A DNA stretch of 37,873 nt from a virus, in IMG/VR virus record IMGVR_UViG_3300032299_000346, positions 1-37,873 of that record; one strand, given 5' to 3'. A program made the translations under genes and the position numbers. The notes beneath the pieces were generated by a model. It was not told where the DNA came from. It worked only from the letters and a program-made list of their open reading frames with translations, and did no database searches. The first letter of the stretch is position 1; every line of letters starts with the position of its first letter. Positions 14,556 through 28,995 of the stretch are shown here, one piece after another.

Positions 14556-14809
14556 TATTCATCCTCTTCTTCCATTGGAAAAGCGTCTTCAAGTTCGCTG
14601 TTGTATTCTTCTGCTAATCTCATCATTCCTGCTGCATTCCAAGGAGTCATAGACTCACTTACCTCTGTATGCAGGAAACGATTTCCTTCAAAATCTGCCC
14701 ATTCGGATATTAGAATCCAGTTGGCAGCAATATAGTTTTTTCCTTCATTGTCATTATCTACTAATAAACGAAGTGCATCGCCTACCATCTCACGAAATTC
14801 TTCGTTCAC
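14555..14809 (-). CDS. Small acidic protein, unknown function
   Basis: This 84-residue protein begins MNEEFREMVGDALRLLVDND and has a very acidic C-terminus (DAFPMEEEDE). It is translationally coupled: the ATG at 14809 overlaps the end of the peptidase gene by four bases, and the stop overlaps the next start. Similar short acidic proteins appear in actinophage head modules without assigned function. Pairing with the peptidase gene makes a regulator or substrate of it imaginable, but nothing shows this. Confidence 0.68.
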   Translation of the reverse strand: MNEEFREMVGDALRLLVDNDNEGKNYIAANWILISEWADFEGNRFLHTEVSESMTPWNAAGMMRLAEEYNSELEDAFPMEEEDE

Positions 14810-15351
14810 TTCTTCACCTGAGTTTCGATAATGAATGGCTCTGATGTTTTGCTATCAAGTTTGGCGCAAACTGCCATTGCTTCTTCAGGTGTAATTCCAG
14901 CGTATAGTGCACCTAGTGCATAATCTCCACCAGAACCGATTCCATAGCAACCATTGTCGTTACGGGAGATTGCAAAGTCAGAATCAATTTCAAATAATTG
15001 ACCATTGACTGCAACAATCAGTTGAAGTTCAAAGTTGGAATCTTTGTCATCTGATGACTTAGAATCAAGAACTCCAGATTCTGTTAATAATTGCTTGAGA
15101 GATGGAACTACCTTTGCAATCATAAATGTAAATAAATCAAGTTTGTCTTTAGCCAGCGGAACTGGCGGTTTCCAGGTATGGAGCACAACTTGAAGTGCTC
15201 GTACATCCCCTGCTGCTCCAATGATAAAATTACCATTGTTAACAACCTTGACCATATCTGGATGGTTGTAAATCTTTGACTCTCCAACTACACGAGAATC
15301 TGCAAGTACGACAGCGTGGTTTGAATACTCAACGCCAATGATGGTTGTCAC
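14806..15351 (-). CDS. Proteasome beta/HslV-like Ntn-hydrolase peptidase
   Basis: This 181-residue protein begins M-TTIIGVEYSNHAVVLADSR, which aligns by eye with E. coli HslV (TTIVSVRRNGHVVIAGDG). Removing Met leaves Thr1. The Asp of LADSR is then residue 17, and the Lys of MVKVV is residue 34, against catalytic Thr1/Asp17/Lys33 of the family. A second block, GIGSGGDYALGALYAG, matches the GSGG region with the accessory serine. The length also fits HslV. It uses a GTG start after AAGGGGAC. No HslU, ClpX or Mpa ATPase is visible in the window. It sits between portal and the giant protein, where many phages encode a prohead maturation protease, and no other such protease was seen. That role is inference; host-protein turnover is an alternative. 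Confidence 0.85.
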   Translation of the reverse strand: MTTIIGVEYSNHAVVLADSRVVGESKIYNHPDMVKVVNNGNFIIGAAGDVRALQVVLHTWKPPVPLAKDKLDLFTFMIAKVVPSLKQLLTESGVLDSKSSDDKDSNFELQLIVAVNGQLFEIDSDFAISRNDNGCYGIGSGGDYALGALYAGITPEEAMAVCAKLDSKTSEPFIIETQVKK

Positions 15352-15367
15352 GCTGTCCCCTTACTTT

Positions 15368-17176: not shown

Positions 17177-17185
17177 TAGTTATCC

Positions 17186-19042: not shown

Positions 19043-19141
19043 TAGAAAAGTCCCCTAAAAGTTGCCCTCTGGTGAGGGTTAAAAACGCTGTATAAACGGT
19101 ATCTGCCAGACGGCATAACTGTGGCGGTCTAGGACATTAAG

Positions 19142-19170
19142 TCTTAGATATCTAATTAGTTATATCTAAG
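19142..19170. repeat. Inverted repeat CTTAGATAT/ATATCTAAG
   Basis: CTTAGATAT (19143-19151) and ATATCTAAG (19162-19170) form a perfect 9-bp inverted repeat with a 10-base AT-rich spacer. A related repeat with the outer sequence TCTTAGATA occurs at 30355-30420, upstream of the other early operon. It could be an operator or, if transcribed from the promoter at 19241-19269, a leader hairpin of the late mRNA. Confidence 0.65.
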
Positions 19171-19200
19171 AACTTGCGTAGTCCCAAACGAAGCAAGTTC
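19170..19200. repeat. Inverted repeat GAACTTGC/GCAAGTTC
   Basis: Perfect 8-bp arms at 19170-19177 and 19193-19200 are separated by 15 bases. It is immediately adjacent to the preceding inverted repeat, sharing one base, so the two would form consecutive stem-loops in a leftward transcript. Confidence 0.6.
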
Positions 19201-19218
19201 GTTTAGAACTATTAATTC

Positions 19219-19240
19219 GTAGTTAGATAAAAATAACTAC
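19219..19240. repeat. Inverted repeat GTAGTTA/TAACTAC
   Basis: Perfect 7-bp arms at 19219-19225 and 19234-19240 surround an AT-rich 8-base loop. This is the third stem-loop in a row, directly next to the candidate -10 at 19241-19246. Confidence 0.5.
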
Positions 19241-19269
19241 TATATAAGATAACCTGTTCAAAGTACCAA
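19241..19269 (-). promoter_or_regulatory. Candidate leftward late promoter
   Basis: On the minus strand TTGGTA (19269-19264) lies 17 bases from TATATA (19246-19241). Each hexamer matches 4 of 6 bases of the sigma-70-type consensus, with ideal spacing. It would produce a leader of about 190 bases carrying three stem-loops before the terminase GTG. Another TATAAT on the minus strand (19377-19372) lacks a good -35. Confidence 0.4.
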
Positions 19270-19440
19270 AACCGAACACTTGATTCCAATATATTTTTAT
19301 TTAATCGGGGTATATATATAAAAGCCCTGTTCAGAGGGGGGTTTATAACAGAAAATTTATTGGGGACTCTTATTATATTAAGGGACCCATATTAAATAAC
19401 CTCCCCCTCAAATGAATACAACTGTCGACTTATCTATATA

Positions 19441-19499
19441 AGCCCCTGACGGGTGCTTGATATTCTTGTCTCATTATATGAGACTCACCCTAGGGGGCT
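19441..19499. other. Nested long hairpin
   Basis: AGCCCC (19441-19446) pairs with GGGGCT (19494-19499), GGGTG (19451-19455) with CACCC (19486-19490), and GTCTCAT (19468-19474) with ATGAGAC (19478-19484), leaving a 12-base bulge on the left arm. The element is followed on the plus strand by a weak T-run (gtctttta), so it could act as a rightward terminator. It could equally be a cruciform or structured origin element. Confidence 0.5.
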
Positions 19500-19509
19500 C
19501 GTCTTTTAT

Positions 19510-19551
19510 AAATGGTTTACATATAAATCAAATATGTAAATGGTTTACATA
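19510..19551 (+). promoter_or_regulatory. Operator/iteron-like pair with a TTTACATA core
   Basis: The 14-base direct repeat aaatggtttacata occurs at 19510-19523 and 19538-19551, 28 bases apart. The second copy is part of the perfect palindrome TATGTAAATGGTTTACATA (19533-19551; 8-bp arms, 3-base centre). Paired helically phased sites of this type suit dimeric repressor or initiator binding. Confidence 0.55.
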
Positions 19552-19578
19552 ATAAGGGAATTTGTTTAAGGACACTAT

Positions 19579-19599
19579 CCCCCTGACAATTCGCGGGGG
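19579..19599. other. GC hairpin CCCCC/GGGGG
   Basis: CCCCC (19579-19583) and GGGGG (19595-19599) enclose an 11-base loop in otherwise AT-rich DNA. No U-tract follows in either direction. It sits between the operator-like palindrome and the second 17-base repeat. Confidence 0.35.
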
Positions 19600-19744
19600 T
19601 CATTCATAAATGAAATGTCGACAAATCTATATTCTAAAAGTAGTTTAACTTTCAACTATCAACCAACAGAGTGCAACTATTCTCAGGAATAACTCAGGTA
19701 GAATTCATCTTCTGTTCATCTTCTAAGCGTCATTTGGATTGGAC

Positions 19745-19796
19745 AGGTGTACACCTCTCGTGTAAATTGTGCTTATCGATAAGGGATTCACCCTTA
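19745..19796 (+). promoter_or_regulatory. Palindrome cluster before the first early gene
   Basis: Three symmetric elements lie within 52 bases: AGGTGTACACCT (19745-19756, perfect), CTTATCGATAAG (19772-19783, perfect) and TAAGGG/CCCTTA (19780-19796). They end 25 bases before the ATG of the SprT-like gene. They are likely protein-binding sites or leader structures that control early expression. A clear -35/-10 pair is not visible here; TTGGAC at 19739 with TGTAAA at 19761 is only a weak match. Confidence 0.5.
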
Positions 19797-19821
19797 CGAC
19801 TTAGGACGGGAGACTTAAGAA

Positions 19822-20484
19822 ATGAAGACAGCAACAGCAACCAAGAAGACAACAGCAGCCGACATATTCGCCAAGGGTGCCAAGGTTGAAAACCTTTCAA
19901 CAATCACCAAGGCATTAGAAATGGCTCACGAGATTATTGCCAAGGAAACAGGCGCACCTCGCGCCACTATCGTGACAGGAAGAAGCGACAAGGTAAACGG
20001 TCACTTCACCCCTTGGACACCTTGGGCATCGGGAGAAGAATCGTTTCACGAGATTTTTATAACCATCGCCAAGCGAGAAGCCCGCGAGATTCTTGGGACA
20101 TTACTACACGAGACAGCACACTCAATCGACAACAAGGAGGGAATCCAAGGAACAAGCGGGGACGGGTACCACAACAAGAAATTCAAGGAGCGAGCAGAAT
20201 CCCTAGGGCTTACCATCACTCAAGCACCGCGAATTGGTTTCAGTGTCACCGCCGTATCGGATGAATGCGCGACACGTTGGGCAGAACCCCTCCGCCTAAT
20301 CGAGGAAGCCCTACGCCTAACAGCAGACAGCGGACAAGGCACCGCCAAGCCTAAGGGCAGAAACAAGAATTTGCTAGTGGCAGAATGCGATTGTGGCGAG
20401 AAGATTCGCCTATCGGCAAAGACCCTGAAACTATGCGCCCCTCGTTGCCAGAATTGCTTTCACGATTTCGAGGTGAAGGGATAA
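19822..20484 (+). CDS. SprT-like zinc metalloprotease
   Basis: This 220-residue protein has the zinc protease motif HETAH at residues 96-100, followed by YHNKKFKERAESLGL with the likely third ligand His117. This is the arrangement of SprT/Spartan-like proteases. The C-terminus (about 184-220) has cysteines in CDCG and CAPRCQNC, a zinc ribbon typical of the family. GGGAG lies ahead of the ATG. It is the first gene of the rightward early operon, followed by a structured 148-base gap. SprT-family members in cells deal with DNA-protein crosslinks; in phage the target is unknown, perhaps host DNA-bound proteins. Confidence 0.85.
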   Translation: MKTATATKKTTAADIFAKGAKVENLSTITKALEMAHEIIAKETGAPRATIVTGRSDKVNGHFTPWTPWASGEESFHEIFITIAKREAREILGTLLHETAHSIDNKEGIQGTSGDGYHNKKFKERAESLGLTITQAPRIGFSVTAVSDECATRWAEPLRLIEEALRLTADSGQGTAKPKGRNKNLLVAECDCGEKIRLSAKTLKLCAPRCQNCFHDFEVKG

Positions 20485-20503
20485 GACTTAAGACATAAGG
20501 ACA

Positions 20504-20632: not shown

Positions 20633-20968
20633 ATGCAAACAACAGTAGAAGATTTAGACCGCCTTGTTGCGGTATTGGAAGGGCTAGTTCAACCCTTGTT
20701 AGAGGGCGAAGTAATCGAGGCAACGTACGAGTCAAACAAACGCCCTCATCTAGTGTTACAACTAGGGAGCAAGACTTACGGACGCGCCTACAGAATCTTT
20801 TTCTCAGGCGGTAGCAAGTACGGCTCAGGACACTGGGAGCCACGCGGTTTCAGTGATTACCTGGGAGGCACCAAAGCAGAGGCAGAGCGCACATTGAGAA
20901 GCCTCATTGCAGGAATTAGAACGGGTCAGATGATTGCAGAAACTTCACTACTTAAGACAGGAAACTAA
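20633..20968 (+). CDS. Early protein of unknown function (111 residues)
   Basis: The start at ATG 20633 is chosen because GACAGGAGA precedes it. A longer in-frame extension upstream would run through the hairpins. The protein has an N-terminal helix (VEDLDRLVAVLEGLVQPLLE), a beta-rich core (RPHLVLQLGSKTYGRAYRIF) and a C-terminal helix with KAEAERTLRSLIAGIR. Its last residues, LLKTGN, are coded by the repeated start-associated element that serves the next gene. No family is recognised. Confidence 0.75.
   Translation: MQTTVEDLDRLVAVLEGLVQPLLEGEVIEATYESNKRPHLVLQLGSKTYGRAYRIFFSGGSKYGSGHWEPRGFSDYLGGTKAEAERTLRSLIAGIRTGQMIAETSLLKTGN
20951..20964 (+). promoter_or_regulatory. Start-associated repeat, copy 1 (CTTAAGACAGGAAA)
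   Basis: This copy lies 19 bases before the ATG at 20970 and contains the Shine-Dalgarno. It matches 13 of 14 positions of the element CTTAAGACAGGAGA found before four other starts. Confidence 0.75.
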
Positions 20969-20969
20969 G

Positions 20970-21143
20970 ATGAGTTACAACCCAGACACCCAACAGAGTA
21001 GCCTTTTACACGATTTAGCCGACACGATTACATCACCGCACGCACTAGACCAAGCGGTGAGCGTACTAATCGACTGGGGTTTAGTAGATGCAGACCTAGG
21101 CGCAGAGTACATAAAAGAGTTTATGGGGCGAGTAAATGACTAA
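20970..21143 (+). CDS. Small acidic early protein (57 residues)
   Basis: The start at 20970 follows the start-associated repeat by 19 bases. The protein, MSYNPDTQQSSLLHDLADTI through ADLGAEYIKEFMGRVND, is acidic and helical. Its end overlaps the next start by eight bases. I do not recognise it. Confidence 0.65.
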   Translation: MSYNPDTQQSSLLHDLADTITSPHALDQAVSVLIDWGLVDADLGAEYIKEFMGRVND

Positions 21144-21306
21144 TGACTTAAGACATAAAAACTATTACAGAGTGCGAACAATTGTTCGGGTTATGTTTTG
21201 GGCTGGAGTACTAGCCCTCACCTACACCCTGGCAACGCACATCAACTGGACAGAGGACGGCTATTGCTGGGGAACTATAACGAAATGTTATCTAGGTGAC
21301 GCATAA
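21136..21306 (+). CDS. Small membrane protein (56 residues)
   Basis: The frame runs from ATG 21136 to TAA 21304-21306. A basic N-terminus (MTNDLRHKNYYRVR) precedes one hydrophobic segment (VMFWAGVLALTYTLATHI), followed by an outside-type tail with two cysteines. It overlaps the preceding gene by eight bases and its stop overlaps the next ATG by one. The CTTAAGAC at 21147 is inside this gene. Translation is supported by fit, not by homology. Confidence 0.5.
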   Translation: MTNDLRHKNYYRVRTIVRVMFWAGVLALTYTLATHINWTEDGYCWGTITKCYLGDA

Positions 21307-21467
21307 TGGATGCAACCTTTAAGCCTCACACCATAGACGAATTGCTCACCACAATTTACGAGGACAACCTCAACCACTTTGAATTTATGGAATCAATGAA
21401 CGGCGGAGATTGTGATTGTAATCTACACCACACAATGGAAACTATTGTTAAGTATTGGGGCGAATAA
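21306..21467 (+). CDS. Small early protein (53 residues)
   Basis: The frame from ATG 21306 to TAA 21465-21467 codes MDATFKPHTIDELLTTIYED and ends IVKYWGE. A central DCDCNLHH segment might bind a metal ion. It shares one base with both the upstream stop and the downstream start (TAATG twice), a strong sign of translational coupling. No family is recognised. Confidence 0.55.
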   Translation: MDATFKPHTIDELLTTIYEDNLNHFEFMESMNGGDCDCNLHHTMETIVKYWGE

Positions 21468-21580
21468 TGTGTGGCGATTGCTTGGTAGAACTTAGCCAGT
21501 GCGTGCACGGTTACTACTTAAGACGTGAGACCAAGGTCACACTAAAGACACTTGACAACAGCAAGACAGCAGTACAATAA
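21467..21580 (+). CDS. Tiny early peptide (37 residues)
   Basis: The frame from ATG 21467 codes MCGDCLVELSQCVHGYYLRR and ends KTAVQ at TAA 21580. It has a CGDC pair and one further Cys. The segment YYLRR is coded over a CTTAAGAC copy. Evidence is only the TAATG overlap and the position in the gene train. Confidence 0.4.
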   Translation: MCGDCLVELSQCVHGYYLRRETKVTLKTLDNSKTAVQ

Positions 21581-21613
21581 TACAACTACCAACAACGACA
21601 GGAGAATAAGAAA

Positions 21614-21766
21614 ATGAAATTAGAAAACCAAGCCAAGTTAAATCAAGTCATCGACCTAGTGGCAGAGATTATAAAGGACGAAAAATTCTATAGCCCTAGA
21701 TTGTCACAGTCTTTGGTTGAACTACTACACACAAGAGACTTACAACTTAAGACAGGAGATAACTAA
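21614..21766 (+). CDS. Small early protein (50 residues)
   Basis: The start at 21614 has GACAGGAGA (21597-21605) upstream. The sequence begins MKLENQAKLNQVIDLVAEII and ends LQLKTGDN, the last residues being coded by the next start-associated repeat. It is predicted helical with no known family. The stop abuts the next ATG directly. Confidence 0.65.
   Translation: MKLENQAKLNQVIDLVAEIIKDEKFYSPRLSQSLVELLHTRDLQLKTGDN
21746..21759 (+). promoter_or_regulatory. Start-associated repeat, copy 2 (CTTAAGACAGGAGA)
   Basis: This exact copy of the consensus lies 21 bases before the ATG at 21767. The GGAGA part is the Shine-Dalgarno of the 105-residue protein gene. Confidence 0.8.
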
Positions 21767-22084
21767 ATGTTACCAAACGAAACACTAGATGCAGTCACTA
21801 AAGGACGCGAAGGATTCGACTACGATTCAGAGGGCAACTTTACTGGAGCAGGGGGTGTTGATGCGATGAACTTACTCAGACTACACACCTTGTATTCAAG
21901 TCTTAAGTTAGAAGTTAAGACAGGTATGAAGATGTCAGCCCGTATCAATACCCTGGCAGTAGCAAACGAAATGCTAGGCACCAACTATAAGCGCAAAGCC
22001 AAGGCACTAGAGCACGTAGAGGCAGTGCTTGTTATGGCTGGAGAGATTCAGAATCCACCACTTAAGACAGAAGAAAACAAATGA
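21767..22084 (+). CDS. Early protein of unknown function (105 residues)
   Basis: The start at 21767 is fixed by the start-associated repeat and the abutting upstream stop. The protein has a hydrophilic N-terminus (GREGFDYDSEGNFTG), then helices with LLRLHTLYSSLKLEVKTGMK and NTLAVANEMLGTNYKRKAKA, and ends LKTEENK. The middle resembles a short DNA-binding-like helical bundle, but no family is recognised. It overlaps the next start by four bases (ATGA). Confidence 0.75.
   Translation: MLPNETLDAVTKGREGFDYDSEGNFTGAGGVDAMNLLRLHTLYSSLKLEVKTGMKMSARINTLAVANEMLGTNYKRKAKALEHVEAVLVMAGEIQNPPLKTEENK
22061..22074 (+). promoter_or_regulatory. Start-associated repeat, copy 3 (CTTAAGACAGAAGA)
   Basis: This copy lies 20 bases before the ATG at 22081 and differs from consensus at one base (GAAGA for GGAGA), which weakens the Shine-Dalgarno. 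Confidence 0.7.
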
Positions 22085-22167
22085 CTGGTCTATTTATAGC
22101 AGTGCTACCCATAGTTTTACTGGCAGTATTAGGTTTAATAATCAACGACGAAATGATAGGAGAATAA
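22081..22167 (+). CDS. 28-residue single-pass membrane peptide
   Basis: The frame from ATG 22081 to TAA 22167 codes MTGLFIAVLPIVLLAVLGLI followed by INDEMIGE. Nearly the whole peptide is one hydrophobic helix with an acidic tail. It is preceded by a start-associated repeat and overlaps the upstream stop as ATGA. Tiny membrane peptides in early phage operons may modify host membrane functions, but the role here is unknown. Confidence 0.55.
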   Translation: MTGLFIAVLPIVLLAVLGLIINDEMIGE

Positions 22168-22168
22168 G

Positions 22169-22420
22169 ATGGCTGCATCACCACAATGGAAAGTTTATAC
22201 ACCACAAGGCGAGTACGTAGCAAGTACCAAGCACACAGAGGGCGCAAGTTTATTGATGAGTCTGTATGGAGATGGCGCGACCATTCGGTTCGACCATCGC
22301 AAAGTTGTATGGACAGAGGGGCTTGACGGTACAGCAAGTCAGTCCTATGATTACACAGCAGAACAAATACATAAGAAGTTACAGGGCAACACACTACTTA
22401 AGACAGGAGATTCAGAATGA
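22169..22420 (+). CDS. Small early protein (83 residues)
   Basis: AGGAGA precedes the ATG at 22169. The protein starts MAASPQWKVYTPQGEYVAST and continues with beta-strand-like stretches (ATIRFDHRKVVW), a compact fold of unknown family that could bind a nucleic acid or protein. It ends LLKTGDSE, coded by the next start-associated repeat, and overlaps the next start as ATGA. Confidence 0.75.
   Translation: MAASPQWKVYTPQGEYVASTKHTEGASLLMSLYGDGATIRFDHRKVVWTEGLDGTASQSYDYTAEQIHKKLQGNTLLKTGDSE
22397..22410 (+). promoter_or_regulatory. Start-associated repeat, copy 4 (CTTAAGACAGGAGA)
   Basis: This exact consensus copy lies 20 bases before the ATG at 22417 and carries the Shine-Dalgarno of the 36-residue peptide gene. 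Confidence 0.8.
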
Positions 22421-22527
22421 CAACAGAAGAACAGCAAGTCTTAGCACTTAAGACATTACACGAAGCGATTCAAGCACTCAAAGACCTAGGCTTTGTGACA
22501 GAGGGCGACGACGATGAGTTACGGTAA
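22417..22527 (+). CDS. 36-residue acidic helical peptide
   Basis: The frame from ATG 22417 to TAA 22527 codes MTTEEQQVLALKTLHEAIQA and ends EGDDDELR. It is a single predicted helix with an acidic tail. It has a consensus start-associated repeat, overlaps the upstream gene by four bases and the downstream gene by fourteen. Confidence 0.6.
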   Translation: MTTEEQQVLALKTLHEAIQALKDLGFVTEGDDDELR

Positions 22528-22633
22528 ATGCTGGGTATGTGGGTGTGTAATGTCAGGCGAAAGTCAGACAATGGAAAATAAAGTCACTTGCGATAGATGT
22601 GGCTGGGTATCAGGCAAAGACGGGAGTTACTAA
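22514..22633 (+). CDS. 39-residue zinc-ribbon peptide
   Basis: The frame from ATG 22514 to TAA 22633 codes MSYGKCWVCGCVMSGESQ and ends DRCGWVSGKDGSY. CWVCGC and CDRC form two cysteine pairs spaced as in a zinc ribbon. It overlaps the preceding gene by 14 bases and the next by one. The cysteine spacing makes it more than chance, but its partner is unknown. Confidence 0.6.
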   Translation: MSYGKCWVCGCVMSGESQTMENKVTCDRCGWVSGKDGSY

Positions 22634-22785
22634 TGAGTGAGCCACAGTTAAACGACCCAGTATTCTATGACGACTCAGACTTTATTCAATGTGACACTTG
22701 CTTTGAATGGTTTGACCACGACAAATACAACTCAGATACTTGCGAGAGGTGCGAGAATGAAACAACAATTCCAAGTGGTGTATGA
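22633..22785 (+). CDS. 50-residue zinc-ribbon protein
   Basis: The start at 22633 is chosen because it overlaps the upstream stop (TAATG). The protein has CDTCFEWF and CERCEN pairs, a second zinc ribbon directly after the first, in an acidic protein (DPVFYDDSDF). The C-terminus overlaps the next gene by 29 bases. Two consecutive different zinc ribbons may act as a pair. Confidence 0.65.
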   Translation: MSEPQLNDPVFYDDSDFIQCDTCFEWFDHDKYNSDTCERCENETTIPSGV

Positions 22786-22981
22786 AACTAAGGGCGTAAA
22801 GGTTGTCAATGTCTGGCTACCAGAGGGCACTGAACTACCCACTAACTGGCACACAATGACCTATGCACAGCAGGATGAATGGTTGTATGAACACCAAGCC
22901 AAGAGCGAAGACTTATGGCGTGATGAATACAAGGGTGAGGCAGTCAACATCTTACCTGTCTTAAGTCTTAAAGCAGTATGA
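22757..22981 (+). CDS. Early protein of unknown function (74 residues)
   Basis: I place the start at ATG 22757, after GCGAGAGGTGCGAG, instead of an upstream ATG that would overlap the zinc-ribbon gene much further. The product begins MKQQFQVVYETKGVKVVNVW and contains WHTMTYAQQDEWLYEHQ. It is acidic and aromatic-rich, with no known family. It overlaps the next start as ATGA. Confidence 0.65.
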   Translation: MKQQFQVVYETKGVKVVNVWLPEGTELPTNWHTMTYAQQDEWLYEHQAKSEDLWRDEYKGEAVNILPVLSLKAV

Positions 22982-23100
22982 AGTTAATAGGACAGAGCCT
23001 TTTAATTTACTTATTCTTTTTCTTTGGTGGTGGTGGCACGCTACTAATTCCCTACTTTACTTTAATAACAATTCTTTATTTGACAGGAGTAATCGGATGA
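22978..23100 (+). CDS. 40-residue membrane peptide
   Basis: The frame from ATG 22978 to TGA 23100 codes two hydrophobic stretches, LLIYLFFFF and LLIPYFTLITILYL, separated by GGGGT, a hairpin-like membrane peptide. It shares four bases (ATGA) with both neighbours. The final codons contain the AGGAG that serves the WhiB gene. Confidence 0.55.
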   Translation: MKLIGQSLLIYLFFFFGGGGTLLIPYFTLITILYLTGVIG

Positions 23101-23450
23101 CACTACCTGATAAACGCTGGCACGCAGAGGGCGACTGCAATCAACACCCTGACCCTGACCTATGGCACTACGAGAACAGTATCCACGCAGATGAACAACA
23201 ACTACAGGTGTTACGAAGTGTAGAAGCAATCACTCTATGTCGCACCTGTCCAGTCCAAGAGTTATGTCTTAAGGAAGGACTAGAGTCTGAGAACGTACAG
23301 TTCTGGGGTGGATGGGGCACCATCTGGGGTGGGTTACTGACATCTGAGCGTTATCAACTGCTTGAACACAGAGATAATCAGAAGATAGTGACAGCAGAAC
23401 AGCGTCATAGACGCGATGTTCGGCAGAAACTTGCTAAACTTTACGGATGA
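23097..23450 (+). CDS. WhiB-like iron-sulfur transcription regulator
   Basis: This 117-residue protein has four conserved cysteines (C14, then C48-x2-C51-x5-C57), which ligate a 4Fe-4S cluster in WhiB proteins. They are followed by GGWGTIWGG (71-79), the family's G-rich turn, and a basic C-terminus (QRHRRDVRQKL). WhiB proteins bind the host sigma factor and alter promoter choice. Phage WhiB proteins such as that of TM4 inhibit host WhiB function. A good AGGAG at 23085-23089 precedes the ATG. In this early operon it probably reprograms host transcription, and it is the best marker for an actinobacterial host. Confidence 0.93.
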   Translation: MTLPDKRWHAEGDCNQHPDPDLWHYENSIHADEQQLQVLRSVEAITLCRTCPVQELCLKEGLESENVQFWGGWGTIWGGLLTSERYQLLEHRDNQKIVTAEQRHRRDVRQKLAKLYG

Positions 23451-23866
23451 AACGACACATAGTAGTAATCATAATCTTAACAGGGGTAATCTTATTCGCA
23501 CCAGTGGGCAATGATGTTAATGTCAATGTCGGCTTAGAGTTTAAGCACCCAGTTAAGACGCAGACCAAGGCAACAATGGAGCAGAAGGCAGCCAACAAAG
23601 TAATGGCTATGAAGTTTGCCAAGGCAGGTTATAATTGGGACTTAAGACAGAGGCAGTGCATCTATAAGTTGTTCACTGCCGAGTCACGCTTCGACCACTT
23701 AGCAAAGAACCAACAAGGCAGTAGCGCATTCGGTATCGGACAAGTATTGAAGGAGACTAGCAAAGACCCAGCGATACAGATACTCAATGCGTATAAGTAT
23801 ATCAAGCACCGCTATGACACACCTTGCAGGGCTTGGTCGCACCACGTTTCCAGAAACTGGTACTGA
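23447..23866 (+). CDS. Secreted lysozyme-like lytic transglycosylase
   Basis: This 139-residue protein starts with MKRH and a hydrophobic segment (IVVIIILTGVILFAPV, residues 5-20), a signal peptide or anchor. The C-terminal domain reads LFTAESRFDHLAKNQQGSSA, FGIGQVL and ends AWSHHVSRNWY. This is the pattern of small actinobacterial SLT/transglycosylase domains, with a likely catalytic Glu79. It cleaves peptidoglycan. It is unusual that it lies in the early operon, away from the holin/endolysin genes, so it may act in wall remodelling or superinfection rather than lysis. It overlaps the WhiB stop as ATGA. Confidence 0.82.
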   Translation: MKRHIVVIIILTGVILFAPVGNDVNVNVGLEFKHPVKTQTKATMEQKAANKVMAMKFAKAGYNWDLRQRQCIYKLFTAESRFDHLAKNQQGSSAFGIGQVLKETSKDPAIQILNAYKYIKHRYDTPCRAWSHHVSRNWY

Positions 23867-24045
23867 TGTTAGACCTAAGAGGTACGCCTATCTTCACTTG
23901 TATTTGTGGTTGTAAGATGTTTACAATCACAGTAATGTGGGATGAAGAGACAAGAGAAGTATCCTGGTATGACTTAAGACAGGAATGCAAGGAGTGTGGG
24001 GCAATCAGCACCGCACCAACACCTATGGATTGGAGAGATGAATGA
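23866..24045 (+). CDS. Small zinc-ribbon early protein (59 residues)
   Basis: The start at ATG 23866 overlaps the upstream stop (TGATG). The protein has CICGC near residues 12-16 and CKECG near 46-50, two metal-binding pairs around a beta-rich core (MFTITVMWDEETREVSWYDL). This looks like a zinc ribbon of the rubredoxin-like type. It overlaps the next start by four bases. The partner is unknown. Confidence 0.65.
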   Translation: MLDLRGTPIFTCICGCKMFTITVMWDEETREVSWYDLRQECKECGAISTAPTPMDWRDE

Positions 24046-24176
24046 GCGCAAGAGAAATTGGAAACAGAAAATGGCTAACCTATGGTCGGGTATCTGGGTT
24101 TGCTATTGGTTTTAGTATTAACAGATACTTTACTGATGTACAACTAGGGTTCTGGTATGTAGGGTTGGAGTACTGA
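24042..24176 (+). CDS. 44-residue small protein, possible membrane association
   Basis: The frame from ATG 24042 to TGA 24176 codes MSAREIGNRKWLTYGRVSGF and an aromatic segment ending VQLGFWYVGLEY. It is basic at the N-terminus with an amphipathic hydrophobic remainder. Both ends overlap neighbours (ATGA and TGATG). No family is recognised. Confidence 0.5.
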   Translation: MSAREIGNRKWLTYGRVSGFAIGFSINRYFTDVQLGFWYVGLEY

Positions 24177-24349
24177 TGCCAACGTATGAGTATCGGTGCA
24201 ACAGGTGTCACTCACATACAGTCTTAAGCCGTAAGGTAGATGAACGCGATGAAGAAGTTGCTTGCATTTGTGGGCACGTTAGTAGTAGAATTTATAACAC
24301 ACCAGCCATTCGCTTCAACGGAAGCGGATTTTATTCAACAGGAGGATAA
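24176..24349 (+). CDS. FmdB-type zinc ribbon protein
   Basis: The 57-residue product begins MPTYEYRCNRCHSHTVLSRK, has a second pair CICG and ends IRFNGSGFYSTGG. This matches the FmdB family pattern (MPxYEYRCxxCGxxFE ... FKGxGFYxT), a single-domain zinc ribbon thought to be regulatory. It starts at ATG 24176, overlapping the previous stop. The full motif from start to C-terminus is present, so this small gene is well supported. Confidence 0.8.
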   Translation: MPTYEYRCNRCHSHTVLSRKVDERDEEVACICGHVSSRIYNTPAIRFNGSGFYSTGG

Positions 24350-24350
24350 G

Positions 24351-24506
24351 ATGTGCGAAATATGTGAGAACGGTGGTTGCAGTAATTGTGCGCCACAGAA
24401 CGAGACACTACAGTTTGCTAGCGGTAAAGAGATTGAAGAGTTCTACGACTCATATGGTGAGTCACTTTGGGTAGACCCAGCAGAGTCAACGCCTGAGTCT
24501 TCCTGA
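24351..24506 (+). CDS. Small Cys-rich acidic protein, last gene of the rightward early operon
   Basis: The start at 24351 follows AGGAGG (24339-24344). The 51-residue product begins MCEICENGGCSNCAPQNETL, with four cysteines in two CxxC pairs, and ends in an acidic tail. Its last 64 bases overlap, in antisense, the 3' end of the sigma-like gene on the opposite strand, so the two early operons converge without a spacer. Confidence 0.65.
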   Translation: MCEICENGGCSNCAPQNETLQFASGKEIEEFYDSYGESLWVDPAESTPESS

Positions 24507-25132
24507 GGGGCATCGTCGTAATCGCGGAATGGTTTGAACCCACCAATCTTGTTGATGAGTTTACGAATGGCACGCTTATGACGCATACGAACTGCATCTT
24601 CTGTACCCATATCTAATTCCTTTGCAATGTCACCGAAGTCCATTGACTCTGCATAGCGTAGGAATAAAACTTTCCTGTCATCCTTTGGCAGTTTCCAAAA
24701 TGCGTAATCAACTTCAATCATCATAGCCATAAGGTTGCCACCTTCGCTAGGTGCAGAGGGACGTCCTGGTCTACCAAGATTTAACTTATGGGTTACACCC
24801 CATTCACTTCTTAAGACAGGAGGAAGCAAGGCTTCAACCATATCTGCTTCATAATAGAACAAGTCGCTAGTCTCATAGCCACCAGACTTAGCCTTCCAAT
24901 GCTGACAGTAATCTAATGCTTGGTTACGTAGGCTACGATAGATAAGGTTCTTAGCATCCTTAACTCCGATTGCTTCCCAAGTATCCAACTTATTAGGATG
25001 TTCAAGGAACCACTGATAGAGTGCTTGTCTAATATCTTCTGACTCAATGTCATTAAACTTACGTGAGTATTCAGTGGTAACAGCATCTACTACATACTGC
25101 CAAGGTTCAATGCGTGACCACTCTAGGTTCAT
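24443..25132 (-). CDS. Sigma-factor-like regulator (region 4-type HTH)
   Basis: This 229-residue protein has a C-terminal block, FWKLPKDDRKVLFLRYAESM then FGDIAKELDMGTEDAVRMRH (about 145-195), that matches sigma-70 region 4. The N-terminal helices (IRQALYQWFLEHPNK, LIYRSLRNQALDYCQHW) resemble region 2. A disordered acidic tail follows (DAPQEDSGVDSAGSTQSDS). It may direct RNA polymerase to phage promoters. It is the last gene of the leftward early block and its 3' end overlaps the convergent operon by 64 bases. It also contains a consensus-like CTTAAGACAGGA at 24810-24821 on the opposite strand. The region-2 match is weaker than region 4. Confidence 0.75.
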   Translation of the reverse strand: MNLEWSRIEPWQYVVDAVTTEYSRKFNDIESEDIRQALYQWFLEHPNKLDTWEAIGVKDAKNLIYRSLRNQALDYCQHWKAKSGGYETSDLFYYEADMVEALLPPVLRSEWGVTHKLNLGRPGRPSAPSEGGNLMAMMIEVDYAFWKLPKDDRKVLFLRYAESMDFGDIAKELDMGTEDAVRMRHKRAIRKLINKIGGFKPFRDYDDAPQEDSGVDSAGSTQSDSPYES

Positions 25133-25515
25133 TTAATTCTAACTCCGTTATCTAGGTGGAGAAAACCTACAAGTTTCATCTTGTTATTCTTATTAGCAAA
25201 CTCTGTTGTACTAGGCAACCACTTCTCATCCCACTGTATAGGCATCATCATATGCAAAGGGAAAGCCCACACACCTTCGGGTGTTGAGTTAATGTACCAA
25301 GGTGTAAAGCCTAGTAAGTTTGCCTCTTCAATGAGGAAGTCATACTTCATCTTCTCAATCAACAGGTCAGGGTAGTGTGTCTTTCGTGACTTAAGTTCGA
25401 TAAACATTTTGTATCTATCAGTGGTGCAATCAAAGCCATCGTACTCTAGGGGTGAGTGAATCAAGTCAGGTAGATATGTTTCTCTCAGCCAATCAAAGAG
25501 TTCTTTTTCTTTCAC
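25129..25515 (-). CDS. PD-(D/E)XK-type nuclease, probable
   Basis: This 128-residue protein has Asp29 in YDGFDCTTDRYKMF followed by E40-L-K42 (IELKSRK), the spaced Asp and ExK pattern of the PD-(D/E)XK nuclease fold. The remainder is mixed alpha/beta. It overlaps both neighbours by four bases. It may process replication or recombination intermediates, or degrade host DNA. The motif is short, so the fold is likely but not certain. Confidence 0.6.
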   Translation of the reverse strand: MKEKELFDWLRETYLPDLIHSPLEYDGFDCTTDRYKMFIELKSRKTHYPDLLIEKMKYDFLIEEANLLGFTPWYINSTPEGVWAFPLHMMMPIQWDEKWLPSTTEFANKNNKMKLVGFLHLDNGVRIK

Positions 25516-25898
25516 TCAGTATCCCACTGTCCTCTTAGCACAAGCAATCCAATGATTGCATAGTTAGCCATATCCTTGAAGGAATCCTCAAGGCTTTCGT
25601 GCTGGGGAGATGCGTTGTTATCTATCAGGTGGTTAATTCTAGCAGACTTATCGTGCATACGCACACGCAATCCATTGAGTGCACCGCCTGGTGCTTGAGA
25701 TATATTCTTCGGTCCATAATCTTTATGCTTAGACAGCAACAACTCTGCCAACTCAGCCATCGTTTTAGACAGGTGTGCTTCCAGTCTTACCTCGCGCTTA
25801 ATAGAGGCACTGTAATTGTCACTATCAGTGAGGTATCCATCTGTTCCGTCCGTGTTACGTTCAACCCTAAATCTGTCAAATACTGGATAATCTGCCAT
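25512..25898 (-). CDS. DUF1599/Nmad1-like (nucleotide-modification-associated, MazG-like)
   Basis: This 128-residue protein has helical MazG-like features: AHLSKTMAELAELLLSKHKD, YGPKNI, RMHDKSARINHLID and HESLEDSFKDMANYAIIGLL. The KHKDYG, DKxxR and ESxxDxxxDxANYAI spacing resembles DUF1599 (nucleotide modification associated domain 1), a family linked to modified-nucleotide metabolism. The acidic residues could bind metal and a nucleotide. It may control dNTP pools or exclude non-canonical nucleotides. The family name is from memory. Confidence 0.65.
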   Translation of the reverse strand: MADYPVFDRFRVERNTDGTDGYLTDSDNYSASIKREVRLEAHLSKTMAELAELLLSKHKDYGPKNISQAPGGALNGLRVRMHDKSARINHLIDNNASPQHESLEDSFKDMANYAIIGLLVLRGQWDTE

Positions 25899-25904
25899 AT
25901 CTCT

Positions 25905-26276
25905 TCACTCCCTGCCTTCGTCATCTTTAGGTTCCTCCGCTAGTAATTCTTGTAAGTCTCTATCAAAATCTTGTAGTGCTGATTTAACTATGACATCTTC
26001 TATCAACTCATCAACCAACTCATATCCCATCTCACTTGCAAACAATGTGATGTAGGTAGACTGAGTAATCAATTTGATTTGGTCTGGGTTCTCTGCATTG
26101 CTGTGCATAAACCTTAGCAGTGAGCCTAACATAAGTTTGAACCCAGAGGGCAACAGGTAGTAAGGGTCGAACTGTTCATCCTCATCAAGCATATGGTCTA
26201 CTAATGCAAATGAATCGTCAAAGGTTATCTTGCATTCATTGCAGTAGTTATGTGGTGGTGAATCTTCAATGCTCAT
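25905..26276 (-). CDS. Early protein with an N-terminal C2H2-like finger, unknown function
   Basis: This 123-residue protein contains CNECKITFDDSFALVDHML (residues about 12-30), like a degenerate zinc finger. A helical body follows (LLPSGFKLMLGSLLRFMHS, TQSTYITLFASEMGYELVDE) with a very acidic C-terminus. It lies between the primase TOPRIM part and the DUF1599-like gene in the replication block, overlapping the former by four bases. No family is recognised. Confidence 0.65.
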   Translation of the reverse strand: MSIEDSPPHNYCNECKITFDDSFALVDHMLDEDEQFDPYYLLPSGFKLMLGSLLRFMHSNAENPDQIKLITQSTYITLFASEMGYELVDELIEDVIVKSALQDFDRDLQELLAEEPKDDEGRE

Positions 26277-26896
26277 AAATCTATACCCATCTTTGAATAG
26301 AAGTAGGAAGAGCCTTCTTGCAAGAACAAAGAATTAACATCGTGTCCGTCTGGAGATTGAACGATAGTAACTGGTAGTTCTCTGGCAAGACTACGGGCAA
26401 ATTCTGTGCCAGGTTGGTCTCCATCTGCGAAGACAAAGACCCGTTCAAAGTCTGCCAACAATCGTGTGTAATGTTTCTTCCAAGAGTTTGCCCCAGGGAC
26501 TCCAACACAGGGAATTCCAATGACGCGAGCCATAGTAAGTGTATCAATCTCGCCTTCACATATTCCAATGTAATCACTAGCACGCTCCACATCTGTGACG
26601 TTGTACATTCTAGTCTCTGCCCCTGTCATACCCATATACTTAGGTTCAACTGCAGGGTTAAGACTTCTAAATCGTAGGTCAACTACACCAGTCTTAGTGA
26701 TGTAAGGGATTGACAAGCGACCAACGTATTGTTCGTGCCCAACCTCAGGCTCCGCGACTACGCCTAATGATGCCAGACGTGCTACCTCTAGTGGAATTCC
26801 CCGACTTGCTAGGTAATCTTCCGCCAGAGAGATGCTTTCCGCGTATGTTGCTGCTGCTATCCCCAGTAATTCTTTCTGCAAAACGCTTTGCTTCAT
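26273..26896 (-). CDS. Primase TOPRIM part (split primase, C-terminal piece)
   Basis: This 207-residue protein has YLASRGIPLEVARLASLG (about 28-45), typical of the region ahead of a primase TOPRIM, then CEGEIDTLTMARVIGIP with Glu114 and VFVFADGDQPG with Asp158 and Asp160, the TOPRIM metal-binding residues. It overlaps the zinc-finger gene by 152 bases in the +1 frame. As an independent gene it would start at ATG 26896 with AAGGG about nine bases upstream. A +1 shift near CCCC at 26861-26864 would instead fuse it smoothly to the CHC2 domain. Either way it is the catalytic half of the phage primase. Confidence 0.85.
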   Translation of the reverse strand: MKQSVLQKELLGIAAATYAESISLAEDYLASRGIPLEVARLASLGVVAEPEVGHEQYVGRLSIPYITKTGVVDLRFRSLNPAVEPKYMGMTGAETRMYNVTDVERASDYIGICEGEIDTLTMARVIGIPCVGVPGANSWKKHYTRLLADFERVFVFADGDQPGTEFARSLARELPVTIVQSPDGHDVNSLFLQEGSSYFYSKMGIDL

Positions 26897-27134
26897 TAAA
26901 GTTTAGCCCTTCTTGACGACAGATGATTTGAATACTATTTCCTTGTACTCCACAGGCGAAACAAATGAAGATGTTCTTGTCCAAGTTCGCACTACCACTT
27001 TGGTGTGTGTCAGAATGAAAGGGACACTTGAGATTAATCTGTCCGTGTGTGCTTCTAAGTTTTGCTCCGTAGTGTTCAAGTATGGCTTTGATACTTGGTA
27101 GGTTGTTGTCAATTCTTATCACCATAACCTGCAT
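26745..27134 (-). CDS. Primase CHC2 zinc finger part (N-terminal piece)
   Basis: This 129-residue product has C37-x2-H40 in LKCPFHSDTHQ and C58-x2-C61 in ICFACG, a CHC2 zinc finger as in DnaG-type primases, followed by EGLNFNEAKRFAERITG. After that the frame continues into a Ser/Arg/Gly-rich stretch that does not look like a primase. The authentic protein therefore probably shifts into the TOPRIM frame. The start may be 27134 or a second ATG at 27125. Both overlap the upstream nuclease gene. Confidence 0.8.
   Translation of the reverse strand: MQVMVIRIDNNLPSIKAILEHYGAKLRSTHGQINLKCPFHSDTHQSGSANLDKNIFICFACGVQGNSIQIICRQEGLNFNEAKRFAERITGDSSSNIRGKHLSGGRLPSKSGNSTRGSTSGIIRRSRGA
26861..26864 (-). 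other. Candidate +1 frameshift site (GGGG on the coding strand)
   Basis: On the minus strand ACT GGG GAT can slip by one base at the four-G run to ACT G GGG ATA. This joins FAERITG of the CHC2 frame directly to IAAATYAESISLAEDYLAS of the TOPRIM frame. It could be a programmed shift, a biological indel or a sequencing error. Confidence 0.45.
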
Positions 27135-27456
27135 CTCTTAGCAACTTAACACCATCTTCTAAGCGCACTAACATTACCCAATCTCCCACTGATTTTTCTC
27201 CCTGTCCATTAAGTCTTAAGACTACTACGCCCAGGTCTTTGTCGTTTGCTCTGTCCTTTAATTGTGCTATCGCTGCAGCAGGATTAAATCCTGTGCGAGC
27301 CTTTACTTCCCAGTCAATACCAACAGTGCCAGTAACATCACTACCACTGCGACCAGCACCAGTACTCTCAGCAAAAGGGAAGCCATTGTCAACCAGATAA
27401 TTAGCCAATACTTTTTGACTACGATATCCACGATGCTTACGCGATTGTGAAGGCAT
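27109..27456 (-). CDS. Holliday-junction-resolvase-like PD-(D/E)XK nuclease
   Basis: This 115-residue protein begins MPSQSRKHRGYRSQKVLANY. It has D40 in SGSDVTG and E50-V-K52 in DWEVKAR, the Hjc-like arrangement of acidic residues and lysine. Size and N-terminal basic region fit archaeal-type Holliday junction resolvases also found in actinophages. It would resolve branched replication or packaging intermediates. It overlaps the upstream nuclease gene by 20 bases. Confidence 0.7.
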   Translation of the reverse strand: MPSQSRKHRGYRSQKVLANYLVDNGFPFAESTGAGRSGSDVTGTVGIDWEVKARTGFNPAAAIAQLKDRANDKDLGVVVLRLNGQGEKSVGDWVMLVRLEDGVKLLRDAGYGDKN

Positions 27457-27943
27457 TTAATTCCTGTCCTAAATCTTCTAAGTTGCATACGTACCTGACT
27501 CCATATCCAAAGTCTTTCTCAAAGCATACACTCAAGAACTTCTCTCGTGAGATATCTCCCCACACTATGAAGTGCGAGTTGATATGTGGCTGTGTTCTGT
27601 CACCAACAAGAGTCACAAGGATTGCATAGTCAGCAGAGAATAGTTCTTTGCTGTTGAATATCAGTTGCTTAGTTACAGTTGTCTTAACCTGAACAGTCTT
27701 GCCATTAACAACTAGGTCGTGACCTTCATCCCCACCAGTAAGCACTCTGTCATCTACAGATACATCATAAACTTTGGCAACTGCCTTCTCGCCTAGATGA
27801 CCCATCAGGTTTACCGCCCAAGAAGTATTCTTCGCATCAAACTTTCGGTCTGTTACGTTGTACTCTTGCTTGTCCTTACGCATAGCGTCAACGAATGCAA
27901 GAGAGGAATCAATCTCTTCTTGAGTTAGGTATACTTGAACCAC
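27437..27943 (-). CDS. PD-(D/E)XK-like nuclease (restriction-endonuclease fold)
   Basis: This 168-residue protein starts at GTG 27943, directly after the preceding stop. Its likely active site is E52 (GEKAVAKVYD), D76 (GGDEGHDLVVN) and Q85-V-K87 (VQVKTT), a variant of the PD-(D/E)XK motif with Gln instead of Glu. It may cut DNA as a replication or defence-related nuclease. Its context is a cluster of four such folds in the replication block. Confidence 0.65.
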   Translation of the reverse strand: MVQVYLTQEEIDSSLAFVDAMRKDKQEYNVTDRKFDAKNTSWAVNLMGHLGEKAVAKVYDVSVDDRVLTGGDEGHDLVVNGKTVQVKTTVTKQLIFNSKELFSADYAILVTLVGDRTQPHINSHFIVWGDISREKFLSVCFEKDFGYGVRYVCNLEDLGQELNAFTIA

Positions 27944-28141
27944 TTATGACGCGCTCTTATCCTTATTCAGGATACGAACCGCCCACTCTAATCCAGCGTT
28001 AACACCCTCAGTCCACTCATCAGTAATCGGTACCTTGGCTGCTTGAATCTTCTCAATTAACTTAGCAGTCTCTTGTTTAAGTTCAAGTAAAACAAAAGCA
28101 CGCATCTCTTGAGTCGTGTCGTCTTCTTCTTCTCTAATCAT
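27944..28141 (-). CDS. Small acidic helical protein (65 residues)
   Basis: The product begins MIREEEDDTTQEMRAFVLLE and contains EWTEGVNAGLEWAVRIL. It is acidic and helical. AAAGGT lies upstream of the ATG at 28141 and the stop abuts the next start. Short proteins with a WxxGVxAGLEWAVRIL-type segment are common next to phage nucleases and helicases. The function is unknown. Confidence 0.65.
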   Translation of the reverse strand: MIREEEDDTTQEMRAFVLLELKQETAKLIEKIQAAKVPITDEWTEGVNAGLEWAVRILNKDKSAS

Positions 28142-28181
28142 TACTTACCTTTCACGTATGGTTAGTGTTAATTGTACCACG

Positions 28182-28970
28182 TTATCCACCATTACCTTCG
28201 GGTATGTCACCTATCCACATAAACTCAGGGTTCCAAGATAACCAAGCAAGCATATTGCCATTAGCATCTGCTCTACCGTATCTATTTTTTACAGGGGCAA
28301 TAGCCATAGAAGTACCAACAACTCCAAGGGTACAAATAAGAGCAGGAAGTTGCGCGACCTTACCTTGAAGAGCCGACCTAGGCTGACAAGGATTTCCAGG
28401 TACAGCCTCAGAAGTGTGGTGAAGAATAATGATAGCAGCGTTAGTATCACGAGCAAGAAATTTCAACTCCTTCATAATCGCACGCATAGATGCGAACTCT
28501 TCGCCACCATCGGTGGCAATATCCATTAGGTTATCTACAAAGATTGCCTCAGGTGGACAGCCCCATAGTTCTTCAAAGGCTTGTACCTCTTCGTCAATAT
28601 CCTGCAAGGTAGGTGATGATTCAAATGACCACACAATGTGTGCACCTTTAGCAAGTACTGCCTTAGTCCAACCAGTATCAGTGTTCATTAGATGCTCAAC
28701 ATCTGTCTGATTCTTACCGCTAATCATTGATGCTAGGCGCATAGCCATAGTGTGTGCGTTAGTATCTGCTGAAATGTAGAGACTAGGCACCTTCATATTA
28801 AGGGCTAAAGCCAGTGCTAGAGTGGACTTTCCCACACCTGGAGTACCTGCAAGCATAGAGACTTCTGCTCTACGAAATATAATTTTATTAGATTCAAAGG
28901 AACGAAAGACAAAGGGTAATGGTTCACCACCAATGTCTGCTCTTCCTACACTTCTTACTAATGTTCTCAT
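28182..28970 (-). CDS. DnaB/RecA-type replicative helicase-like ATPase
   Basis: This 262-residue protein carries Walker A GTPGVGKST (42-50), a Walker B-like AIFVDNLMDI, and AAIIILHHTSE, which matches the DnaB/RepA helicase C-terminal ATPase. Only the ATPase domain is present and the usual DnaB N-terminal domain is absent, so a short RepA-like or loader-like helicase is likely. It lies upstream of the primase genes, consistent with a phage replisome. Its start is preceded by a consensus start-associated repeat (28989-28976). Confidence 0.82.
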   Translation of the reverse strand: MRTLVRSVGRADIGGEPLPFVFRSFESNKIIFRRAEVSMLAGTPGVGKSTLALALALNMKVPSLYISADTNAHTMAMRLASMISGKNQTDVEHLMNTDTGWTKAVLAKGAHIVWSFESSPTLQDIDEEVQAFEELWGCPPEAIFVDNLMDIATDGGEEFASMRAIMKELKFLARDTNAAIIILHHTSEAVPGNPCQPRSALQGKVAQLPALICTLGVVGTSMAIAPVKNRYGRADANGNMLAWLSWNPEFMWIGDIPEGNGG

Positions 28971-28975
28971 TTAAT

Positions 28976-28989
28976 TCTCCTGTCTTAAG
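28976..28989 (-). promoter_or_regulatory. Start-associated repeat, copy 5 (CTTAAGACAGGAGA, minus strand)
   Basis: This exact consensus copy reads leftward and lies 19 bases before the ATG of the helicase-like gene at 28970. It is the only full copy in front of a gene in the leftward early operon, on the opposite strand from the other four. Confidence 0.8.
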
Positions 28990-28995
28990 TTGGAA

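Follow-up and report, generated by a model that had tools for sequence, protein, structure and literature searches.

Palindromic sites dispersed through phage early operons are linked to a SprT-like protease gene and are candidate operators

The early operons in a 37,873-nucleotide (nt) stretch of viral DNA (IMG/VR record IMGVR_UViG_3300032299_000346, positions 1 to 37,873, the whole of which we call the window) contain many copies of a short palindromic element, ~TtaYGTCTTAAGACRtaA. Within a large group of phages with actinophage relatives, sequence comparison places these sites almost exclusively in phages that carry the gene for one SprT-like zinc metalloprotease. Codon comparisons indicate that selection acts on the nucleotides of the sites even within protein-coding DNA, with a site inside a sigma-factor gene as the clearest case. 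We favor, with some reserve, the reading that the palindromes are operators of a dimeric DNA-binding protein that would control early transcription and be coupled to the protease.

The element and its sites

A preliminary description of the window had listed five copies of a 14-base sequence, CTTAAGACAGGAGA, before start codons. All five lie where it placed them (20951, 21746, 22061 and 22397 on the plus strand, 28989-28976 on the minus strand), with 19-21 nt from copy to start codon; those at 21746, 22397 and 28989-28976 are exact, and those at 20951 (..GGAAA) and 22061 (..GAAGA) carry a single change. Its shorter versions at 23641, 23973 and 24810 were also found, and the C-termini of the upstream proteins do read LKTGN, LKTGDN, LKTEENK and LKTGDSE. 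Matches to the 14-mer with at most three mismatches numbered 19, against a mean of 3.8 and a maximum of 9 in 100 dinucleotide shuffles. The repeat is thus real, but the list of copies was incomplete, as the 8-mer CTTAAGAC occurs 22 times over both strands, at 20 distinct places, and the true element reaches 6 bases farther upstream than the 14-mer.

Comparison with relatives resolves CTTAAGACAGGAGA into a fusion of a ribosome-binding site (RBS), GACAGGAGA, and the palindromic element. The RBS is common across all relatives, including those that lack the palindrome. Among 8-mers, CTTAAGAC showed the strongest over-representation in the window (22 against 2.5 expected) and in most relatives rich in the sites (motif-rich), and GACAGGAG was enriched in nearly all larger relatives. 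Because this enrichment holds even where CTTAAGAC is missing, we read the 14-mer as the palindrome plus an ordinary RBS, the two overlapping in GACAGGA. Spelled as a duplex, the palindrome is TTACGACTTAAGACAGGA; TTACGACTTAAGACAGGAGA.

A symmetric profile was built from seven relatives, excluding the window itself. It found 28 window sites above 10 bits, against 1.7 expected from shuffles; 17 that scored above 11 bits lay no farther than 5.5 kb from the first early gene. In the ten motif-rich genomes for which this was counted, the sites above 11 bits numbered 21-34 per genome. The profile consensus was ~yTyMyGTCTTAAGACrKrAr, in which T-6 and A+11 both reached 77%; as the profile was seeded with CTTAAGAC and its symmetry was forced, the symmetry needs separate evidence. 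In start-proximal sites, which were oriented by their RBS, the upstream half was conserved (T-6 0.79, T-5 0.61, A-4 0.63, C-3 0.63, A-1 0.77; n=241), for which ribosome binding supplies no reason; the other sites, oriented only by their right half, gave G-2 0.70 and T-6 0.69 (n=1215). Conservation of CTTAAGAC itself is likewise not accounted for by ribosome binding, as the preliminary description had argued.

The palindrome also occurs inside genes, in both orientations. Among 258 sites in 13 relatives, 144 were intragenic and 94 lay within 60 nt upstream of a called start; gene calls were crude, and near-identical contigs were taken out of the sets described as deduplicated. Before starts, most sites shared the orientation of the gene (66 same, 12 opposite); within genes neither orientation prevailed (54 same, 57 opposite). 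The overlap of one half with the GACAGGAGA RBS accounts for the orientation of the start-proximal copies, and oriented prestart sites together with unoriented intragenic sites form the pattern expected of a double-stranded site whose half can double as an RBS. The palindrome is probably a site at which a protein binds double-stranded DNA. A promoter element was rejected, as the aligned flanks hold no second box at a fixed distance. No known RNA family or tRNA was found in the window, and the papers listed by an open-paper literature search for CTTAAGAC were unrelated.

The sites of the window, with the protease and sigma-factor genes, are as follows.

17408-17425: site TAGCGTCTTAAGACCTTC, within the terminase gene; present in some motif-rich and some motif-poor relatives
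19794-19825: two weaker sites, with cores CTTAGG at 19800 and CTTAAG at 19814 (13.5 and 14.5 bits), flanking the RBS of the protease gene
19822-20484, plus strand: SprT-like zinc metalloprotease gene, 220 amino acids, first gene of the rightward early operon
20481-20498: palindromic site ATAAGACTTAAGACATAA, intergenic, after the protease gene (17.7 bits)
20945-20962: palindromic site TCACTACTTAAGACAGGA, its right half being the RBS of the gene starting at 20970
21141-21158: palindromic site TAATGACTTAAGACATAA, just within the gene starting at 21136 (23.0 bits)
21511-21528: palindromic site TTACTACTTAAGACGTGA, intragenic
21740-21757: palindromic site TTACAACTTAAGACAGGA, containing an exact 14-mer that supplies the RBS of the gene starting at 21767
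21896-21913: palindromic site TCAAGTCTTAAGTTAGAA, intragenic, opposite orientation
22055-22072: palindromic site CCACCACTTAAGACAGAA, preceding a possible 28-amino-acid reading frame starting at 22081
22391-22408: palindromic site ACACTACTTAAGACAGGA, containing an exact 14-mer that supplies the RBS of the gene starting at 22417
22441-22458: palindromic site TTAGCACTTAAGACATTA, intragenic
22954-22971: palindromic site ACCTGTCTTAAGTCTTAA, opposite orientation, preceding the gene starting at 22978
23262-23279: palindromic site TTATGTCTTAAGGAAGGA, within the whiB-like gene
23635-23652: site TTGGGACTTAAGACAGAG, within the transglycosylase-like gene
23967-23984: site GTATGACTTAAGACAGGA, within a 59-amino-acid gene, in the codons for DLRQ
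24217-24234: site TACAGTCTTAAGCCGTAA, intragenic
24443-25132, minus strand: sigma-factor-like gene, carrying the decisive intragenic site
24804-24821: site TCACTTCTTAAGACAGGA, within the sigma-factor gene, codons V106-L107-R108, minus strand
27209-27226: site TTAAGTCTTAAGACTACT, within the RusA-like gene (11.5 bits)
28978-28995: site TCCTGTCTTAAGTTGGAA, which overlaps the RBS of the DnaB-like helicase gene and contains the exact 14-mer on the minus strand

Site density was 2.5-3.7 sites/kb over +1 to +6 kb from the protease start, below 1/kb farther along the leftward operon, and 0-0.7/kb (mostly 0-0.5/kb) in the late genes. Gaps between sites averaged 350 nt and were more even than random (coefficient of variation, CV, 0.61), with 2.7% of gaps below 60 nt against 15.8% expected; helical phasing of the gaps was weak (0.15 against 0.08 expected) and was not used.

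Selection on nucleotides and the link to the protease gene

Coding DNA of the rightward early genes contained CTTAAGAC 13 times, against a mean of 2.3 and a maximum of 7 in 200 synonymous-codon shuffles, which preserve each gene's protein and codon usage. Leftward-operon coding DNA contained it 4 times against 0.36; the late genes had 3 against 1.06, which was not significant.

The sigma-factor gene was compared in 36 distinct sequences from protease-positive phages. V106 is GTC in 34 of 35, L107 is TTA in 34 of 34 and R108 is AGA or AGG in 34 of 34, against a mean major-codon frequency of 0.59 in the six-fold degenerate columns of the gene. Ten protease-negative genomes encode the same residues as GTA/GTC, TTA/CTT/CTG/TTG and AGA/CGC/CGA/CGT. 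Among loci of known status, the codon string GTC TTA AGR is present in 32/32 protease-positive and 11/33 protease-negative phages; several of the protease-negative phages that retain the site neighbor protease-positive relatives on the sigma tree, and that tree alone gave three supported contrasts, too few for a test. The homologous place of the site in the 59-amino-acid gene is kept in 7 of 7 alignable motif-rich genomes and in 1 of 11 motif-poor ones. Where the flanks can be aligned, single substitutions, most of them synonymous, turn homologous coding positions that lack the site into sites.

When 12 motif-rich genomes were compared with 13 motif-poor ones, a single gene family split them, that of the protease, which was present in 10 rich and 0 poor genomes; the two rich genomes left over are fragments, of which one contains a piece of the gene and one lacks it. 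The relatives are for the most part metagenomic contigs, often incomplete, and absence of the protease from a fragment can be false. Other candidate partners (WhiB, the sigma factor, the transglycosylase and small zinc-ribbon genes) were rejected, being found in rich and poor genomes alike or missing from some rich ones. A protease search gave 78 viral loci, nearly all of them site-rich, including loci whose proteases are just 39-42% identical. With loci fetched by the terminase gene added, the set deduplicated to 73 loci, and the early region had 2.71 sites/kb in the 35 loci with the protease gene and 0.15 in the 38 without; medians were 2.77/kb (minimum 0.77) and 0.08/kb (maximum 0.77), respectively.

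On the terminase tree the protease gene switches state 11 times, and in the supported independent contrasts site density follows the gene in 8 of 9 and opposes it in 0 (p 0.008). L182 and L206, both protease-positive, are site-rich even though their terminases are only distant relatives. L216 is 97.7% identical to positions 9189-19658 of the window and then continues into a different early module without the protease gene; no above-threshold site is found in the 5.1 kb upstream of its terminase gene. The preliminary description had said that absence of the repeat from close relatives with the same genes would refute it; such absence does occur, yet it tracks the absence of the protease gene. 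The gene and the early sites share a module, so that being transferred together would be enough to link them; the evidence going beyond hitch-hiking is that from the sites in the sigma gene and the leftward operon (1.14 per kb in protease-positive against 0.27 in protease-negative phages). We consider a functional coupling of sites and protease fairly probable.

The protease has an HETAH motif, a third ligand at H117 and a C-terminal CxC..CxxC zinc ribbon. H96, E97, H100, H117 and the four ribbon cysteines are invariant in 44 sequences, and the IRxS residues R196 and S198 are invariant as well. Its match to the Pfam SprT-like family PF10263 scored 15.9 bits, under the 25.6 cut-off, and no meaningful match emerged when the protease profile was searched against the sequences of solved structures. 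The AlphaFold model (mean pLDDT 82) aligned with SPRTN at Z 8.1 (nearest structures 6mdw/6mdx), with Wss1 at Z 6.8 and with IrrE at Z 4.7.

Some features of the protease locus vary among relatives. The proteases of L146, L147, L195 and L196 have a different C-terminal zinc ribbon (KAxCxCSxIRASxxVI..TCxxCGxxF), the remainder of the protein being little changed. By eye, a sigma-70-like promoter and a hairpin lie upstream of the window's protease gene, and in many relatives the leader has a hairpin, its sequence differing from one to another, with a site after it; in the leader (window 19739-19822 and L133-L206) the stem varies (for example AGAGGGAAATTCCCTCT, GGCGGAAAGTTTCCGC, GTCGGAAATAGTTCCGAC), with changes that appear compensated. 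A gene of about 100 amino acids (..SYGTPIAWH..GWYVVEQKFSVTTSKHQNYVRRAIAES..) is present in 17 of the 38 loci without the protease gene (for example W01 23626-23943, W02 1044-1349 and G002 21507-21830) and in none of the 35 with it. Protease-negative relatives also have GTCTTAAGAC palindromes at matching positions in two neighboring genes of about 280-300 amino acids, 18 nt into each gene (W01 1027 and 1870; W02 23602 and 24445; G005 14206 and 15073).

Candidate explanations

According to the reading that we favor, the element is a palindromic double-stranded site of 18-20 bp that would serve as an operator for a dimeric DNA-binding protein, and the 14-base repeat would be its visible half. About 15-20 copies, one per ~350 bp, cover the early operons at gene boundaries and inside genes, with one half-site shared with the RBS at the boundaries. 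The bound protein would most likely block or tune early transcription, much like stoperators (below) but at symmetric sites; we infer transcriptional control from the way the sites track the early operons and, like stoperators, occur both between genes and inside them. The likeliest form of coupling would be removal of the bound regulator by the protease, the antirepressor logic of IrrE/DdrO or ImmA/ImmR, and this specific mechanism, drawn by analogy, is itself doubtful. As a tentative reading, less likely than not, we also put forward a SprT/Spartan-type DNA-associated protease paired with a palindromic array, in which the protease (or a cut partner) would act at the sites and so time early transcription.

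Several results weigh against the operator reading. Some protease-negative relatives (G026, G001 and L285) keep several sites, and the helicase-start site TCCTGTCTTAAGTTGGAA persists in many relatives without the gene, which shows that a site can exist in the absence of the protease. A third factor, for instance the host species, could govern both gene and sites. Neither a repressor nor an integrase appeared among the families listed by Pfam and PHROGs for the window's early proteins and for 102 accessory proteins from six motif-rich genomes; for PHROGs the best 25 families were considered, and small diverged proteins can be missed. Gene-content comparison gave no DNA-binding repressor gene specific to motif-rich phages, and no DdrO-like or helix-turn-helix gene was found in the phages among the families listed. 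The modeled protease fold is nearest to SPRTN and Wss1, not to IrrE. Finally, seven cultured phages that are more distant also have SprT-like genes, and six of them (4A, CB457P2, SuMoo, Crosby, JuneStar and PMBT24) lack a dispersed palindrome, on which ground we rejected SprT-like genes in general as partners of such arrays.

The seventh of these phages, the Actinoplanes phage phiAsp2 (L211, AY576796.1), is the only one with a dispersed palindrome, of another sequence: TGACN8GTCA occurs 36 times in 58.6 kb (27 in 40.7 kb, 0.77 expected), and several copies overlap promoter-like TTGACA...TAATGT sequences. Its Pas43 is the nearest cultured homologue of the SprT-like protein. The Streptomyces phage Crosby (L212), which encodes a SprT-like protease, has an asymmetric repeat, CGTTTACACG, 12 times in 23.5 kb.

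The binder would be either the protease itself, a small unrecognized phage protein or a host protein. The first choice would make the SprT-like protein the site-binding regulator, through its zinc ribbon or as a whole-protein dimer, so that it would shut down the early operon while accumulating from the first early gene, with proteolysis secondary. Its family is the only one found in every complete motif-rich genome and in no motif-poor genome, R196, S198 and the four ribbon cysteines are invariant, and SPRTN-type proteases bind DNA. We nevertheless think it unlikely, as proteins just 40% identical retain the same CTTAAGAC site (L205, L206), L146 and L147 have a quite different ribbon yet are rich in that site, no helix-turn-helix is recognized in the protein, and some phages keep sites without the gene.

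A host transcription factor could also bind the sites, with the phages of one host group carrying both sites and protease and the link arising through host range. This would fit with our having found no phage-encoded binder and with the helicase-start site being present whether or not a phage has the protease gene. Streptomyces is the host of the nearest cultured phages, and four of these, checked over 40 kb each, have no array of dispersed palindromes; two scans of cellular genomes gave no related locus. Close relatives change both traits together in 8 independent contrasts, however, and the recombination point of L216 sits just before the protease gene, which makes a host factor an unlikely explanation in its turn.

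The sites might serve replication, compaction, segregation or packaging rather than gene regulation. Their even spacing and their placement inside genes would suit such a role, but they are concentrated in the early operons and nearly absent from late genes, and no ParA-, ParB- or nucleoid-like gene was recognized among the families listed; we regard this as improbable.

The preliminary description had seen in the repeat a start-associated element acting on mRNA, through translation control or RNA processing. Five of the window's rightward early genes and the helicase gene do have a site 8-32 nt before the start, and the start-proximal copies are strongly oriented. This cannot be the sole function and was rejected as the main one, since most copies lie away from starts, the intragenic copies are unoriented, the palindrome has a conserved upstream half, the RBS part exists without the palindrome in relatives, and selection is clearest deep inside the sigma-factor gene, ~316 nt from its start; as an account of the array it is highly improbable. 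Propagation as a mini-repeat, also raised there, here taken to be without function and suggested by many near-identical copies within one genome region, was rejected as extremely improbable, because it takes only single substitutions, most of them synonymous, to make a site of a homologous coding position and because the copies share no flanks beyond ~10 bases from the core, the RBS excepted.

Comparison with known systems

SPBRE elements are dispersed over the Bacillus prophage SPbeta, and MrpR is described as the master repressor that goes with this repeated DNA element (PMC10516654). The present array resembles it as a repeated DNA element in a phage and differs in that no MrpR counterpart or integrase was recognized here. 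The stoperators of cluster A mycobacteriophages (L5, Bxb1), bound by the immunity repressor, are more than 20 short dispersed sites in short intergenic spaces, mostly without a promoter (PMC9283540, PMC6550527). The number of sites per genome is similar here, again more than 20 (28 above 10 bits in the window). Stoperators, however, are 13-mers without symmetry that point along transcription, and the phage repressor, a helix-turn-helix protein, binds them as a monomer and stops transcription elongation, whereas the sites described here are palindromic, with unoriented intragenic copies, and it is a zinc protease gene that tracks them, no repressor gene having been found among the families listed.

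Cluster K start-associated sequences (SAS) are repeats limited to non-structural genes, some of which overlap the AGGAG of ribosome-binding sites; they are 13-bp asymmetric sequences, GGGATAGGAGCCC, typically 3-7 bp before starts and nearly always in one orientation (PMC3203893). Restriction to non-structural genes is shared. The sequence is different, in agreement with the preliminary description: the consensus TtaYGTCTTAAGACRtaA is an inverted repeat that extends upstream, and only 94 of 258 sites lie within 60 nt upstream of a start, most being intragenic and in both orientations. A shared RBS can thus make a DNA operator resemble a start-associated RNA signal.

The Deinococcus RDR motif, with the D. 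radiodurans consensus TATGYYHTTARCRKA, is bound by DdrO and controlled by the protease IrrE/PprI (PMC8533742). Here too a palindrome with similar half-sites (TTATGTCTTAAGACATAA) accompanies an HExxH zinc protease, a likeness that we take as a lead only; unlike in the RDR system, the protease looks like a member of the SprT/Wss1-like family, with the HExxH motif and third histidine of those metalloproteases present in 44 sequences, no DdrO-like gene was found among the families listed, and the sites are dispersed through operons rather than placed at promoters. A number of phages have annotated SprT-like proteases to which no role has been assigned, and a link to a specific DNA site would give this family a testable function. 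Codon-level selection over dozens of genomes defines a predicted operator array and names the SprT-like protease as a candidate partner, and the array points to a DNA-binding control system that has not been described. If the tentative pairing of a SprT/Spartan-type protease with the array is right, it would add a further protease-operator logic, a regulatory system not seen before, to those of IrrE/DdrO, ImmA/ImmR and CapP/CapH.

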